Assembly (NCBI GenBank): GCA_028726625.1
Contig: JAQYPT010000090.1
Span: forward strand, 1-64,000
Direction: 5' to 3'
DNA from: Prevotellaceae bacterium
GTDB taxonomy: Bacteria; Bacteroidota; Bacteroidia; Bacteroidales; Bacteroidaceae
Length of the DNA: 64,000 bases
Made by a program: the position numbers and the translations under genes. Below, in pieces: positions 33,039-38,643 of the stretch. Numbering within the stretch: the stretch's first letter is position 1; each line of letters opens with the position of its first letter. The notes below the pieces were generated by a model, which saw nothing but the letters and a program-made list of their open reading frames with translations, was not told the origin of the DNA and made no database searches.

Positions 33039-33106
33039 ATTATATATATAGATTTATTTGTGGCGGACAGCCGTTTTGATTTTAATTGAAAATAGCACCG
33101 AATAGG

Positions 33107-34366
33107 ATGAATGAAGTTAACAAGCAGTTAACCATTGCCGTAGCTGGCACGGGTTATGTAGGCTTAAGTATCGCTACGTTGCTCAGTCAGCATCATCATG
33201 TCTTGGCTGTTGACGTGGTGCAAGAGAAGGTTGACAAGATTAACCGGCGGGAATCTCCCATCAGCGATGAATACATAGAAAAGTTCTTTGCCGAGAAACA
33301 ACTGGACCTGCAAGCAACTCTTGATGGTGAAACAGCGTATAGGCAGGCCGACTTCGTGGTGATTACCACGCCAACCAACTACGACCCTGTGAAAAACTTC
33401 TTCGACACGTCACATGTGGAAGAGGTCATCGAACTGGTGATGAAGGTAAATCCTCATGCCATCATGGTTATTAAGAGCACGGTGCCTGTGGGGTATACGG
33501 CGAGCGTCAGTGAGAAATACAGTTGTGGAAACATCCTTTTTGCCCCAGAGTTCTTGCGTGAGAGCAAGGCTCTGTATGATAATCTCTATCCCAGCAGAAT
33601 CATCATTGGCAGGCCAGCGGGGAATGAAAAGTTAAAGCAGGCAGCACACGCTTTTTCCTCGCTGCTTCAGCAAGGCGCAATGAAAGAGAATATCGACACG
33701 TTGTTTATGGGAACCACCGAGGCTGAGGCCGTAAAACTGTTTGCTAACACTTATTTGGCACTTCGCGTGAGTTTCTTTAACGAGTTGGATACATACGCAG
33801 AGATGAAAAACCTCTCCACCAAGGATATTATTCAAGGAGTAGGGCTTGACCCACGCATAGGGTCGTTCTACAACAATCCCTCGTTTGGATATGGTGGCTA
33901 CTGTCTACCCAAGGACACCAAACAACTTTTGGCCAACTATGAGGATGTGCCCGAAAACCTGATTGAGGCTATCGTGCAGAGTAACCGCACGCGCAAGGAC
34001 TTCATTGCCGACCGTGTCTTACACAAAGCTGGCTATTACGACTATTTCAATCGAGGAGCCTTTGATGCCACCAAAGAGAAAAAATGCGTGATCGGTATCT
34101 ATCGCCTCACGATGAAGAGCAACAGTGACAATTTCAGACAGAGTAGCATACAAGGTGTGATGAAGCGAATCAAGGCCAAAGGTGCCGAGGTTATTGTTTA
34201 CGAGCCTACGCTTGAAGACGGTAGCACTTTCTTTGGCAGTAGGGTGGTCAATGATTTGGAAACATTCAAACAACAGTCCCAAGCCATTGTCGCCAATCGC
34301 TATGACAGGTGGTTGGATGATGTGGAAGAGAAGGTATATACAAGAGACATCTTTAAGCGAGACTGA
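33107..34366 (+). CDS. ugd: UDP-glucose 6-dehydrogenase
   Basis: Oxidises UDP-glucose to UDP-glucuronate. N-terminal [16 protein letters not shown] for [11 protein letters not shown], the glutamate in [20 protein letters not shown], and the catalytic cysteine in [14 protein letters not shown]. 419 aa from ATG 33107; the ORF-track start is a TTG at 33086 with no support. The short (about 390-residue) subgroup fits. A related UDP-sugar dehydrogenase specificity cannot be excluded. Confidence 0.93.
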
Positions 34367-34417: not shown

Positions 34418-35665
34418 ATGAAAACGTATGTAAATTTTTGGCTGTTATCTTTGATGCTGTTATTTCTTGGGACGGTAGAAACTCATGCACAAAGGTTTTA
34501 TTTTAAAGAGTTGTTCAAAAATTGCGAGTATAAATATGAAAAAAAACAAACTCAGAAAACATTTGGGGCTACTGATAAACTTAATAACCATCTATGGGAA
34601 TTAACGGTTGACGGAGTACTTGTTAAATCGCCTTGGAATACGGATTGCCTGCATGTGGGGAGAGATAAAGAAAAGTCTCAGCTCATTTGTTTAGAAACCA
34701 AAACCCTGTTTAAGGATGTGGATTTAGTAAGAGTGTGCACAGATATAGCAATAAAACGAAGAGATTATAAAGTAAGTATGACCCTCGGTTCGGATAGTGA
34801 TAATTATAGAGATACACGTAATTTAACGAAAGATAAAGATAATCTAAATAATGAACTAAGTATTTTTTATATCACAGAGGGTAACATAAAAAGTGGAACT
34901 CTAAAAGTTGAAATGAAAGGAGAAAAATATGAAGAAGGAGCTCTATATTTGTTTTATATAGAAGTCGCTTCTGTTTTATCCGATCAGCAAAAACTACGAA
35001 CCCAACACATCAAACCTGGAGATACTTATTCTTACCAAGTTCAGCGCACGTTCGCATCTACACATTGGAACACCATCTGTCTGCCGTTTGATGTAGACGC
35101 CGAAACTCTGAAACAGGCATTTGGTGAAAATTGTAAGGTAAGACAATTCACGAAGGAGGTTAAAAACAACGTGCTGAAGTTTGATAAATCAGATGCGATA
35201 AAAGCAGGTATACCTTATCTCATCAAGCCTGCGACCAAGGTCGAAAATCCTATCTTCTCAAACGTAGTTTATAAAGATGTGAAACCACTGACTGTTCTAG
35301 ATGAAACTGGGAAATATGCTTTCGTCGGCACATTCGACCCAGTAAAATTAAGTGATGATGGCTCCGACTTGTTCTTGTTGGCTAATGGCAACCTTGCCAA
35401 GCCTAAATCCAAAGAGCTGAGCGAAATGTATGGCATGCGGGCCTACTTCAAAATTAACGACCAAACCAGTTCTTCGGCCAAGCAAATAACGTATGCTATT
35501 GATTGTGGTAGCGACATAGTGAACGGAATACAATCACTGTGGGTACAACCTGCAACAAGCAGCCAGCATATTTACAATTTACAAGGTGTAGATGTAGGAA
35601 CAGACATCCATCACTTGCCAGCAGGTGTGTATGTGATGGGTGGGAAGAAAATAATAAAAAGGTGA
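34418..35665 (+). CDS. Secreted protein of unknown function with Prevotella-type C-terminal motif
   Basis: 415 aa with a signal peptide (MKTYVNFWLLSLMLLFLGTVETHAQ). The first ~180 residues look like a beta-rich domain. A second part begins near THWNTICLPFDVD, a stretch recurrent in Prevotella secreted proteins. The C-terminus, IYNLQGVDVGTDIHHLPAGVYVMGGKKIIKR, has the short Gly/Val/Lys-rich beta-hairpin look of Bacteroidetes sorting domains, but assignment to type IX secretion is uncertain. It is an odd occupant of a polysaccharide locus. Confidence 0.75.
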   Translation: MKTYVNFWLLSLMLLFLGTVETHAQRFYFKELFKNCEYKYEKKQTQKTFGATDKLNNHLWELTVDGVLVKSPWNTDCLHVGRDKEKSQLICLETKTLFKDVDLVRVCTDIAIKRRDYKVSMTLGSDSDNYRDTRNLTKDKDNLNNELSIFYITEGNIKSGTLKVEMKGEKYEEGALYLFYIEVASVLSDQQKLRTQHIKPGDTYSYQVQRTFASTHWNTICLPFDVDAETLKQAFGENCKVRQFTKEVKNNVLKFDKSDAIKAGIPYLIKPATKVENPIFSNVVYKDVKPLTVLDETGKYAFVGTFDPVKLSDDGSDLFLLANGNLAKPKSKELSEMYGMRAYFKINDQTSSSAKQITYAIDCGSDIVNGIQSLWVQPATSSQHIYNLQGVDVGTDIHHLPAGVYVMGGKKIIKR

Positions 35666-35708: not shown

Positions 35709-35921
35709 ATGAAACGTCAACACTACACGGCTCCTGAATTGTCCACCTTTCATTTGGACGAGGCTGCATACACTCTTTTAAACACATCCCCTAAGAAACA
35801 TATTACCAATCAAGCTGATGGTGTCGATATAAACGGTAACAACGATGAAGGAGATGCTCATGATGCTTGCGCCAAAAAGTTTATGTTCCTGGACGAAGAT
35901 GACTTTGACGATAGTGAGTGA
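35709..35921 (+). CDS. Small acidic protein (family with 36670-37053)
   Basis: 70 aa, no signal peptide. It starts MKRQHYTAPEL like many short Bacteroidales proteins of unknown function, has a central DGVDINGNNDEGDAHDA, and ends in a string of Asp/Glu (LDEDDFDDSE). It lies 43 bases after the secreted-protein gene and 38 bases before the pRiA4b-like gene. A degenerate second copy occurs beyond that gene. Function unknown; a peptide precursor or a protein partner are possibilities without direct evidence. Confidence 0.7.
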   Translation: MKRQHYTAPELSTFHLDEAAYTLLNTSPKKHITNQADGVDINGNNDEGDAHDACAKKFMFLDEDDFDDSE

Positions 35922-35959
35922 TTTTTTACTTAGATTGTGATAAGATTAATTGATTGCAA

Positions 35960-36661
35960 ATGGCAAATAGAAAGGCAAAAATCATAAAACTGCCAAACTC
36001 CGAACCAATATTCGATTTGCAACCGCATGATATCGATGCGTTGGCGGACGCTTTAGCATCATTCGGTAAGACAAGCAAGATCATGGCACGTATGGCGACG
36101 ACAAGTCCAAGAGGAAAGAAGGGACTGAAACTCAACTATCAGTTCAAGATTAAGTTACGAGGTATTAGCAATCCACCCGTATGGCGACGTGTGTTAGTAC
36201 CTGCCAACTTCACCTTTTCAGGATTCCACGCTGTGATTCAAGAAGCATTCGGTTGGTGGAACGAACATCTGTATTGCTTTGGTGATAAACCATACAGTCA
36301 GTCGCTGTATATTGCAGAGGAGGATGAAGAGGATTGGTATCGACCCGACTATGATGCCCGAAAGTTCACACTGGAAGAGTTATTTGGTGACGGAGGCATC
36401 GTAAAGAAATTTTGCTATGTCTATGATTTCGGAGACGACTGGATTCACGACATCACGCTTGAGAAGGTATTCGACGAGTATTCTGACCATGCCACCTGCA
36501 TTAAAGGTAAGGGAGCTTGTCCCGAAGAAGACAGTGGCGGTGTATGGGAATACGAAGATATGAAAGAGGACGGAGAGATTGAGGTTTCTGCAGTCATTGA
36601 TTTGGTAGAGATAAACAAACATGTGGAAGCCGTAAAACCAACGGGGTTTGAACCGTGGTGA
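35960..36661 (+). CDS. Plasmid pRiA4b ORF-3 family protein
   Basis: About 233 aa from ATG 35960 (MANRKAKII; the track start 35954 adds two residues). The core YQFKIKLRGISNPPVWRRVLVP, FSGFHAVIQEAFGWWNEHLY and YVYDFGDDWIHDITLEKV is diagnostic of the family, which is widespread on plasmids and chromosomes and has no established function. It lies between the two small acidic protein copies. Confidence 0.9.
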   Translation: MANRKAKIIKLPNSEPIFDLQPHDIDALADALASFGKTSKIMARMATTSPRGKKGLKLNYQFKIKLRGISNPPVWRRVLVPANFTFSGFHAVIQEAFGWWNEHLYCFGDKPYSQSLYIAEEDEEDWYRPDYDARKFTLEELFGDGGIVKKFCYVYDFGDDWIHDITLEKVFDEYSDHATCIKGKGACPEEDSGGVWEYEDMKEDGEIEVSAVIDLVEINKHVEAVKPTGFEPW

Positions 36662-36669
36662 TACAATAG

Positions 36670-37053
36670 TACGTTAATCAAAAAAAATGTGGGATAGGCT
36701 TACAGGCATGGAAACCAAATACCTCCTACACACAAACTGACGGCTTGTATTTTTTTCATAAACAGCTGAGACAGCTTTATAAACCCCGACGTTTTATAGT
36801 AGATTCGTCAAACAATAATATCGACACCAATGGAAACCCCACCGAAGGAGATGCCAGCGGTGCCCACTCCAAATCCTTCGAGCTTGATATAGAAGAAGTG
36901 TGGGAGACGGATGGGAGTAAAACGTTCTTGGGTGAACCAAAATGGGAATCAAGAAAGAGCAAAAGAATGCAACTCGGTATCCGATTATACAGTAAAATGT
37001 CGAAAGAAAGAGTAGTATGTCTGAAGAATATAGTGTCGGCATATTACATTTAG
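36670..37053 (+). pseudogene. Degenerate copy of the small acidic protein
   Basis: The ORF from TTG 36745 contains NNNIDTNGNPTEGDASGAHSK, aligning without gaps to VDINGNNDEGDAHDACAKK of the 35709-35921 protein; downstream both turn acidic (FELDIEEVW against FMFLDEDDF). The frame is open from 36670 but holds no ATG, and the typical N-terminus (MKRQHYTAPE-like) is missing, while the C-terminus runs on into basic sequence. I read it as a decayed paralogue. Confidence 0.6.
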
Positions 37054-37110: not shown

Positions 37111-38643
37111 ATGAATCATCAAAGCCCAACTGGGAATAGGACTATTGCAAAAAATGCAACGATGCTATACTTACGGATGTTTGTAAGTATGATAATTGGC
37201 TTTTATACTTCACGAGTAGTGCTGAAAGCTCTTGGCGTTTCTGATTATGGAATATACAATTTAGTCGGTGGATTCGTTGTTTTAGTGAATATGGTAAGCA
37301 CAGCTCTTAATGGTGCCACATCCAGATTTCTTACCTATAGTTTGGGACAGGGTGTTTTCAAGGAATTACAAAAGACGTTTTCTACTGCTGTTTTTATCCA
37401 CATAGGTTTATCTTTGTTATTTTTAATATTAGCAGAGACAATAGGTTTGTGGTTCGTGAATTATCAGTTGGTGATACCTCTTGAGAGATTAACTGCAGCC
37501 AATTGGGTTTATCAAGCTGCGGTAATCTCGACTATTTTGGGTATACTTCAGGTTCCTTATAATTCACTGATTATCTCTCATGAACGATTTGGTATTTTTG
37601 CTGCCATTGACATTTTAACATCATGTTTGAAACTGCTCATAGCCATTATCGTGTTATATTCTTCATACGATCATCTGATCCTCTATAGTCTTCTTTATGC
37701 TTTCATAACAGTTGCCGTTATTATTTTTTATCATTTTTACTCAACCCATCATTTTCAAGAGAGTAAACTCATATTCCAAATAGATTGGACCACATTCCGT
37801 GAGATGATAAGATTTTCCGGATGGACTCTATTTGGCAGCACGTCTTTGACATTGTCGCAGCAAGGAACAAATATAATATTTAATAATTTCTATGGTACAA
37901 TTATAAATGCTGCGGTTGGAGTGGCTAATCAGGTTCAGGCCATTCTCTATTCATTTATAGGAAACATTTCAGCAGCATTTAATCCACAGATTATAAAGGA
38001 ATATGCACAACAAAATTTTGAACGTGTAGATTTTCTCATTAATTTGGGCGCAAAATTTTCATCATTGATGATATTGTTGGTTTCTGTACCAGTGATTTGC
38101 GAAATGGAAACATTAATGGGATGGTGGCTTGTAGAGATACCAGAAGGAGCTGTTGCTATTTGTCAGATAGCATTGATATCAAATTTTTTTAATAGTTTTA
38201 CTCCTTTGGTATATACTGCAATAACTGCGAGCGGATATGTTCGCTATGTAAATGTTGCCAATGGTATATTGTTCTTACTTCGTTTACCAATTGCCTATTT
38301 TTTGCTGTTATACTTTCATTCTTATACATTAGTTTTGATGGTTTGTTTGTACATACCAATAGCTTCAGGTATAATCAATTTAATCAATTTGAATCAATGT
38401 ATGCCGATGCTTTCGATTAGGCGTTTTATCTGTAAAACCTATCTCCCAATTACTCTTATAGGTTTTTTTTCTTTAATGATAGGATTAATGCTTATGAATC
38501 AAATTGTTAGTCCTACATGTCGGTTTATCAGTGTTTTTATTTTTCCCGCATGTTTTGTTTTTTTATCTGCTTACACTTTTATCCTAAACGAGGGTGAGAG
38601 AAATACAATCAAACATTTAATTAACGTTATTATACACAGATGA
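37111..38643 (+). CDS. wzx: Oligosaccharide flippase (Wzx-like, MOP superfamily)
   Basis: 510 aa with about 12-14 hydrophobic segments. It flips the lipid-linked repeat unit across the inner membrane. N-terminal IAKNATMLYLRMFVSMIIGFYTSRVVLKALG is characteristic of Wzx in Bacteroidetes polysaccharide loci. It marks the start of the AT-rich core. The stop overlaps the start of the next gene by four bases (ATGA), indicating coupling. Confidence 0.93.
   Translation: MNHQSPTGNRTIAKNATMLYLRMFVSMIIGFYTSRVVLKALGVSDYGIYNLVGGFVVLVNMVSTALNGATSRFLTYSLGQGVFKELQKTFSTAVFIHIGLSLLFLILAETIGLWFVNYQLVIPLERLTAANWVYQAAVISTILGILQVPYNSLIISHERFGIFAAIDILTSCLKLLIAIIVLYSSYDHLILYSLLYAFITVAVIIFYHFYSTHHFQESKLIFQIDWTTFREMIRFSGWTLFGSTSLTLSQQGTNIIFNNFYGTIINAAVGVANQVQAILYSFIGNISAAFNPQIIKEYAQQNFERVDFLINLGAKFSSLMILLVSVPVICEMETLMGWWLVEIPEGAVAICQIALISNFFNSFTPLVYTAITASGYVRYVNVANGILFLLRLPIAYFLLLYFHSYTLVLMVCLYIPIASGIINLINLNQCMPMLSIRRFICKTYLPITLIGFFSLMIGLMLMNQIVSPTCRFISVFIFPACFVFLSAYTFILNEGERNTIKHLINVIIHR

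Follow-up and report, generated by a model that had tools for sequence, protein, structure and literature searches.

A family of small acidic proteins encoded mostly behind T9SS-type cargo genes in relatives of Prevotella

Comparison across related genomes places the small acidic protein encoded in the window (the whole 64,000-nucleotide stretch of a Prevotellaceae contig analyzed here) in a large unnamed family of Prevotella relatives, whose genes lie mostly behind genes for cargo proteins carrying a C-terminal tail of the type IX secretion system (T9SS). We regard the module of cargo gene and small gene as very probably real. Its members in the window, their conservation in relatives, the extent of the family and the possible roles of the small protein are described below.

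The cassette between ugd and wzx

The cassette sits between ugd and a wzx-type flippase gene, as the original prediction had placed it, with both borders identified by Pfam matches (Table 1). Conservation in relatives also bears out that it is a real cassette with the upstream secreted protein as a recurrent member. The gene order is identical in Hoylesella buccalis ATCC 35310, where 2.6 kb of DNA align at 85.6% identity and the second copy of the small gene is likewise decayed. Both the secreted protein and the small protein (58-61% identical) are present in two other genomes, G046, where the PRiA4_ORF3 gene is reduced to its end, and G029, where two copies of the module flank a DarTG pair. 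In a further genome, G084, the secreted protein and a small protein of 62 aa are encoded before wzx with no PRiA4_ORF3 gene. Homologues thus exist beyond the window, and their neighbours recur. Between the two neighbours expected to recur, the secreted protein turned out to be the constant partner across the genus, whereas PRiA4_ORF3 is confined to this local slot. Comparing the window with its relatives, dN/dS was 0.42-0.45 for the small gene (cassette copies, three relatives), 0.37-0.41 for the secreted protein and 0.20-0.28 for PRiA4_ORF3; the value for the small gene points to probable translation and to moderate selection on it.

Table 1. Features of the cassette and its borders (window coordinates)
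Feature	Position	Strand	Basis or remark
ugd (UDP-glucose/GDP-mannose dehydrogenase)	33086..34366	+	Left border; Pfam UDPG_MGDP_dh
Secreted protein, 415 aa (cargo 1)	34418..35665	+	ORF; signal peptide at the N-terminus, C-terminal domain of T9SS type
Short T9SS C-terminal domain, 46 aa	35525..35662	+	Motif comparison with PMC11969387
Small acidic protein, 70 aa, net charge -10	35709..35921	+	MKKxYxxP family member
PRiA4_ORF3 family protein, 233 aa	35960..36661	+	PF07929; local companion gene
Decayed second small gene	about 36809..36920	+	Frame break close to the 3' end; unrecognisable at the 5' end
wzx-type flippase	37111..38643	+	Right border; Pfam MatE / Polysacc_synt

The small protein is the ATG-initiated 70-aa ORF originally described, ending in the acidic stretch DEDDFDDSE. 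It matched no named family in Pfam and NCBIfam, and its AF2 model (pLDDT 63) shows disorder everywhere except for an extended N-terminus.

The 415-aa protein upstream had been recognized as secreted and as part of the cassette; its place in the cassette holds and its sequence predicts secretion, but its short T9SS C-terminal domain had been overlooked. Its hydrophobic N-terminus, MKTYVNFWLLSLMLLFLGTVETHAQ, qualifies by inspection as an export signal, and 30 of 31 related cargo proteins pass a hydropathy test for a signal peptide. Short T9SS C-terminal domains with cleavage, B, D and E motifs and a length of 43-55 aa have been described in Prevotella intermedia, with cleavage sites determined for five short domains and C-terminal glycosylation for six cargo proteins (Ye et al. 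2025, PMC11969387). The last 46 residues of the window protein, GIQSLWVQPATSSQHIYNLQGVDVGTDIHHLPAGVYVMGGKKIIKR, are of this type: where the short domains have an xx/GI cleavage site 43-55 aa from the end followed by motifs B (Y..xG), D (GxY) and E (basic), the window tail has VN/GI at -46, YNLQG, GVY and KKIIK. The window's genome also encodes the T9SS sortase PorU (NF033707, E=2e-267, G000:C28). By these motifs, the 415-aa protein is T9SS-type cargo with a short C-terminal domain. It resembles the P. intermedia cargo in tail length, motifs and the presence of PorU, but the main text of that study describes no partner gene. The GxY and basic C-terminal motifs are likewise shared with the type A sorting domain TIGR04183, although this model did not match the window protein at E<=1, and hence did not reach its curated cut-off, and gave only one weak match (E=0.011, below cut-off) among eight other cargo proteins. 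Pfam and NCBIfam searches with the 415-aa protein also returned no match. Its orthologues are 75-86% identical in three relatives and 28% identical in a fourth, and its AF2 model (pLDDT 47) places strands in the C-terminal domain at low confidence.

The cassette had been called unrelated to polysaccharide synthesis; this is uncertain, because PorU conjugates T9SS cargo to a cell-surface polysaccharide (PMC11969387). Other genes lie in or near the slot in relatives. In G029 a DarTG toxin-antitoxin pair (L011:8752-10444; DarG E=2e-114, DarT E=1e-47) lies between the two cargo-small modules. In H. buccalis the interval between fcl and ugd holds an ATPase and DUF4276 pair that matches PADLOC HEC-01A/B (L008:5638-7364), and in G503 another ATPase pair is found near the same polysaccharide-locus slot (L200:4404-6343); with these two pairs, the beginning of the locus has the look of a hot spot where defence genes insert.

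A genus-wide family and its association with T9SS-type tails

Weak profile matches to the small protein in other genera proved to be small ORFs starting MKKxYxxP, five of the six that we read lying directly behind a tailed gene. A further tblastn match, in a Bacteroidales MAG (L009), was rejected as a chance NDEGDAHD antisense to a kinase-like ORF. The family signature is MKKxYxxPxxxxhxhxxxxxLLxxS followed by a variable, acidic, disordered end. Searching 40 same-genus genomes for MKKxYxxP as a DNA pattern gave 196 matches, compared with 24 for the reversed pattern used as a control. We read 69 distinct matches, including nearly all of those from three genomes (G028, G044 and G055). Matches of the MKKRYLAP type arose by chance from FKBP-type genes, and those reading MKKVYADP were set aside as another small family; removal of these (the FKBP-type matches being antisense) left 57 family-like small ORFs.

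For 48 of these 57, a gene of at least 200 aa ends within 210 bp upstream. That gene carries a T9SS-type tail in 45 of 48 cases, compared with 8 of 160 background ORFs (Fisher p=1e-33), and five of the eight tailed background ORFs are themselves cassette cargo, with a sixth being the cargo of G791. A rough rule based on spacing classes most of the upstream tails as short and a few as long. Cargo and small gene are encoded in the same direction, separated by a median of 20 bp and sometimes overlapping; since such a gap leaves little room for a promoter, we infer a shared transcript. The 45 tail-linked small proteins average 64 aa, with a mean charge of +0.8 over the first 25 residues and -8.9 over the remainder, and 29 of them have a Trp within the last 15 residues. 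No membrane segment was found among 46 family members. The passenger domains of the cargo are mutually unrelated (LRR_5, CotH, C10 peptidase, fn3 and choice-of-anchor), which suggests that the small gene tracks the export route rather than the passenger.

In the reverse direction, starting from tails of one spelling, a small partner was found within about 200 bp for 10 of 23 tailed genes in G055, one of two in G000 and none of three in G060. Small partners are therefore frequent but not universal for tailed proteins, and the existence of partnerless ones indicates that the small protein is not generally required. A comparison of the variable ends with the passengers showed no co-variation (rho -0.01), and similarity of the variable ends correlated weakly with tail similarity (rho 0.17, relatedness not controlled).

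A PorU match is present in 39 of the 40 same-genus genomes. In the one exception, G010, none of the T9SS-type tails searched for was found, and in at least two of three cases its small genes lie beside lipoprotein-type genes; as a single genome, it serves as an illustration and not as a test. The window's own genome has six family members, four behind tailed genes and two directly before lipoprotein or fimbrillin-like genes. This second context, in which MKKxYxxP-type small genes lie directly upstream of lipoprotein genes, was seen at L204 and L205 (the window's genome, C92:46211 and C99:13941), L020 and L138, and one of the lipoprotein genes has an Mfa_like_1 (fimbrillin-like) match just below the cut-off. 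Some family members are orphans. At one locus (L108, G055:C14, about 329978), a family small protein is in frame with the following signal-peptide-like secreted ORF, giving a 444-aa frame. An order-wide pattern search of 246 genomes found only a weak excess outside the genus; the sole strong count came from G681, of another family in the same order, with eight MKKxYxxP matches and none in the control.

The decayed second copy and the PRiA4_ORF3 gene

The original prediction described a second, decayed copy of the small protein beyond the PRiA4_ORF3 gene. A profile built from the first copy and its relatives, in which the second copy was not a row, matches the second copy at E=2e-7 (the best of 2000 shuffles reached 0.3), which rules out chance similarity; a single-sequence search gave only E=0.03. 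The central NGNxxEGDA motif does align between the copies without gaps. The proposed extent of the second copy, a 102-aa ORF running to 37053, needs correction: homology is limited to the interval in Table 1, and the ORF stays open only through a frame break near the end of the decayed copy, so that its last part is an out-of-frame tail. By alignment to an intact relative, the original stop lay at 36918-36920. The 5' end and upstream half of this copy were not recognisable above chance.

The intact relative is found in G791, where a small gene 86.5% identical to the decayed copy over 126 bp of DNA occupies the same polysaccharide-locus slot, in the order PRiA4_ORF3, second tailed cargo, intact small gene ending EGDASGAHSKPFDLDTEEVWGDGWE. 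The second cargo of G791 is about 36% identical to the cargo in the window. Similarly decayed second copies occur in H. buccalis, G503 and G366, and together with that of the window these fossils probably stem from one shared event. On the simplest reading, the window once carried cargo 1, small gene 1, PRiA4_ORF3, cargo 2 and small gene 2, and would have lost cargo 2 before small gene 2 decayed. The decayed copy is, judged in this way, the fossil of a second cargo-small module, and the apparent pair around PRiA4_ORF3 is two such modules. In G029, a broken second cargo gene precedes an intact small gene (L011), so decay of the small gene is not always immediate after loss of the cargo.

The gene between the copies is, as predicted, a clear member of the pRiA4b ORF3 family (PF07929, E=7.5e-42; 143.4 bits, gathering score 26.6), with similarity to PDB 2i1s at E=6e-22. 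Its start is probably ATG 35960, corresponding to that of the H. buccalis gene. It is the only copy in the window's genome. Family members turned up in 30 of 149 genomes of the genus, most of them within longer open frames, and among the neighbourhoods that we read, tailed and small genes or their remnants accompany it only in this polysaccharide-locus slot. We therefore rejected PRiA4_ORF3 as a recurrent partner for the genus as a whole and treat it as a local companion only, which falls outside the genus-wide cargo-small pairing.

Possible roles of the small protein

We tentatively propose that the small protein is a co-expressed, dedicated cytoplasmic adaptor or chaperone for precursors of surface proteins. 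Cargo and small gene would be co-transcribed, and the small protein would stay in the cytoplasm, a location judged only from its absence of a signal peptide or membrane segment. Its constant N-terminus would bind a shared factor of the export or translation machinery, and its variable acidic end would bind the neighbouring preprotein, for example at its basic tail. The small protein would then be left behind as the preprotein passes Sec. This proposal best fits the division of the protein into a constant N-terminus and a variable acidic end, the missing export signal, an adjacency that follows the export route, and the loss of the second small gene together with its cargo. In type III secretion, effector and chaperone genes are paired and the chaperone is small and acidic. 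The family resembles these pairs in that a small acidic protein, cytoplasmic by the same judgement, is encoded beside an exported protein, but T9SS cargo leave the cytoplasm by Sec, and no sequence relation is expected. Several observations stand against an adaptor or chaperone: the members beside lipoprotein genes, the orphans, the disordered monomer model and the intact small gene behind a broken cargo gene in G029. A strict one-to-one chaperone is disfavoured by the cargo proteins that have no partner and by the absence of co-variation between variable end and passenger. Taken as a whole, module plus adaptor or chaperone is the best explanation available to us, at somewhat less than even confidence. 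It is more doubtful that the entire family consists of acidic partners dedicated to the cargo of T9SS and to some lipoprotein surface proteins, with the constant end serving a common export factor and the variable end the cargo; such a family would be, as far as we know, the earliest example of accessory proteins specific to individual cargo in type IX secretion.

Two other roles strike us as unlikely. The main rival is that the small protein could be a precursor peptide, with a conserved leader of about 25 aa ending in LLxGS or LLxxS and a variable acidic core that would be cleaved and exported, serving as a signal or as a modified peptide, and co-expressed with surface proteins. The constant N-terminus, the hypervariable remainder and the Leu-rich, small-residue junction at positions 20-25 would suit such a peptide, and the Y-x-x-P near the N-terminus resembles the leaders of lasso peptides, which, like other RRE-bound leader peptides, also have a variable C-terminal part. 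However, further leader positions misfit, no biosynthetic genes were present in the loci read, and neither a maturation enzyme nor an exporter gene was seen in the cassette loci or their close flanks. A GG junction is not conserved (positions 24-25 are mixtures of G, S and T), the strongly acidic core has no conserved modifiable residues, and the small gene decayed where the cargo was lost. Equally improbable, in our estimation, is that the small gene regulates its operon, as a nascent chain or an RNA-level element, by autogenous control of cargo translation or by protecting the mRNA. The tight and sometimes overlapping gene spacing is consistent with such a regulator, as is the position of some small genes just before lipoprotein or fimbrillin-like genes, where a leader ORF would be expected, but the small gene usually lies downstream of the cargo, it is under moderate purifying selection, and its N-terminal residues are conserved at the amino acid level.

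That the small protein confers immunity to a toxic secreted neighbour, or is its antitoxin, is considerably less probable still. Immunity genes usually sit immediately behind the genes of secreted toxins, as the small gene does behind that of a secreted protein, but the neighbours (LRR adhesin-like, CotH, fn3 and C10 peptidase proteins) share no common toxin domain, and immunity gives no reason for the N-terminus to stay constant when the passengers are unrelated. Finally, although small ORFs are common and the FKBP-derived matches did arise by chance, the reversed-pattern control, the background rate of tails and the synteny with dN/dS below 1 refute, at the level of the association, a coincidental or annotation-made proximity of small ORFs to tailed genes, to which we assign almost no weight.

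We found no description of the cargo-small pairing in the literature searched, mainly open-access journal papers, a result that does not in itself prove novelty. If the adaptor or chaperone proposal is true, a small protein is dedicated to each of many T9SS surface proteins in Prevotella relatives, which would be a step in cargo handling that the papers found do not describe. Whatever the mechanism may be, the small gene serves as a strong marker for T9SS-type cargo in genomes, and the pairing supplies a setting for functional tests of an as yet unnamed family of small proteins.
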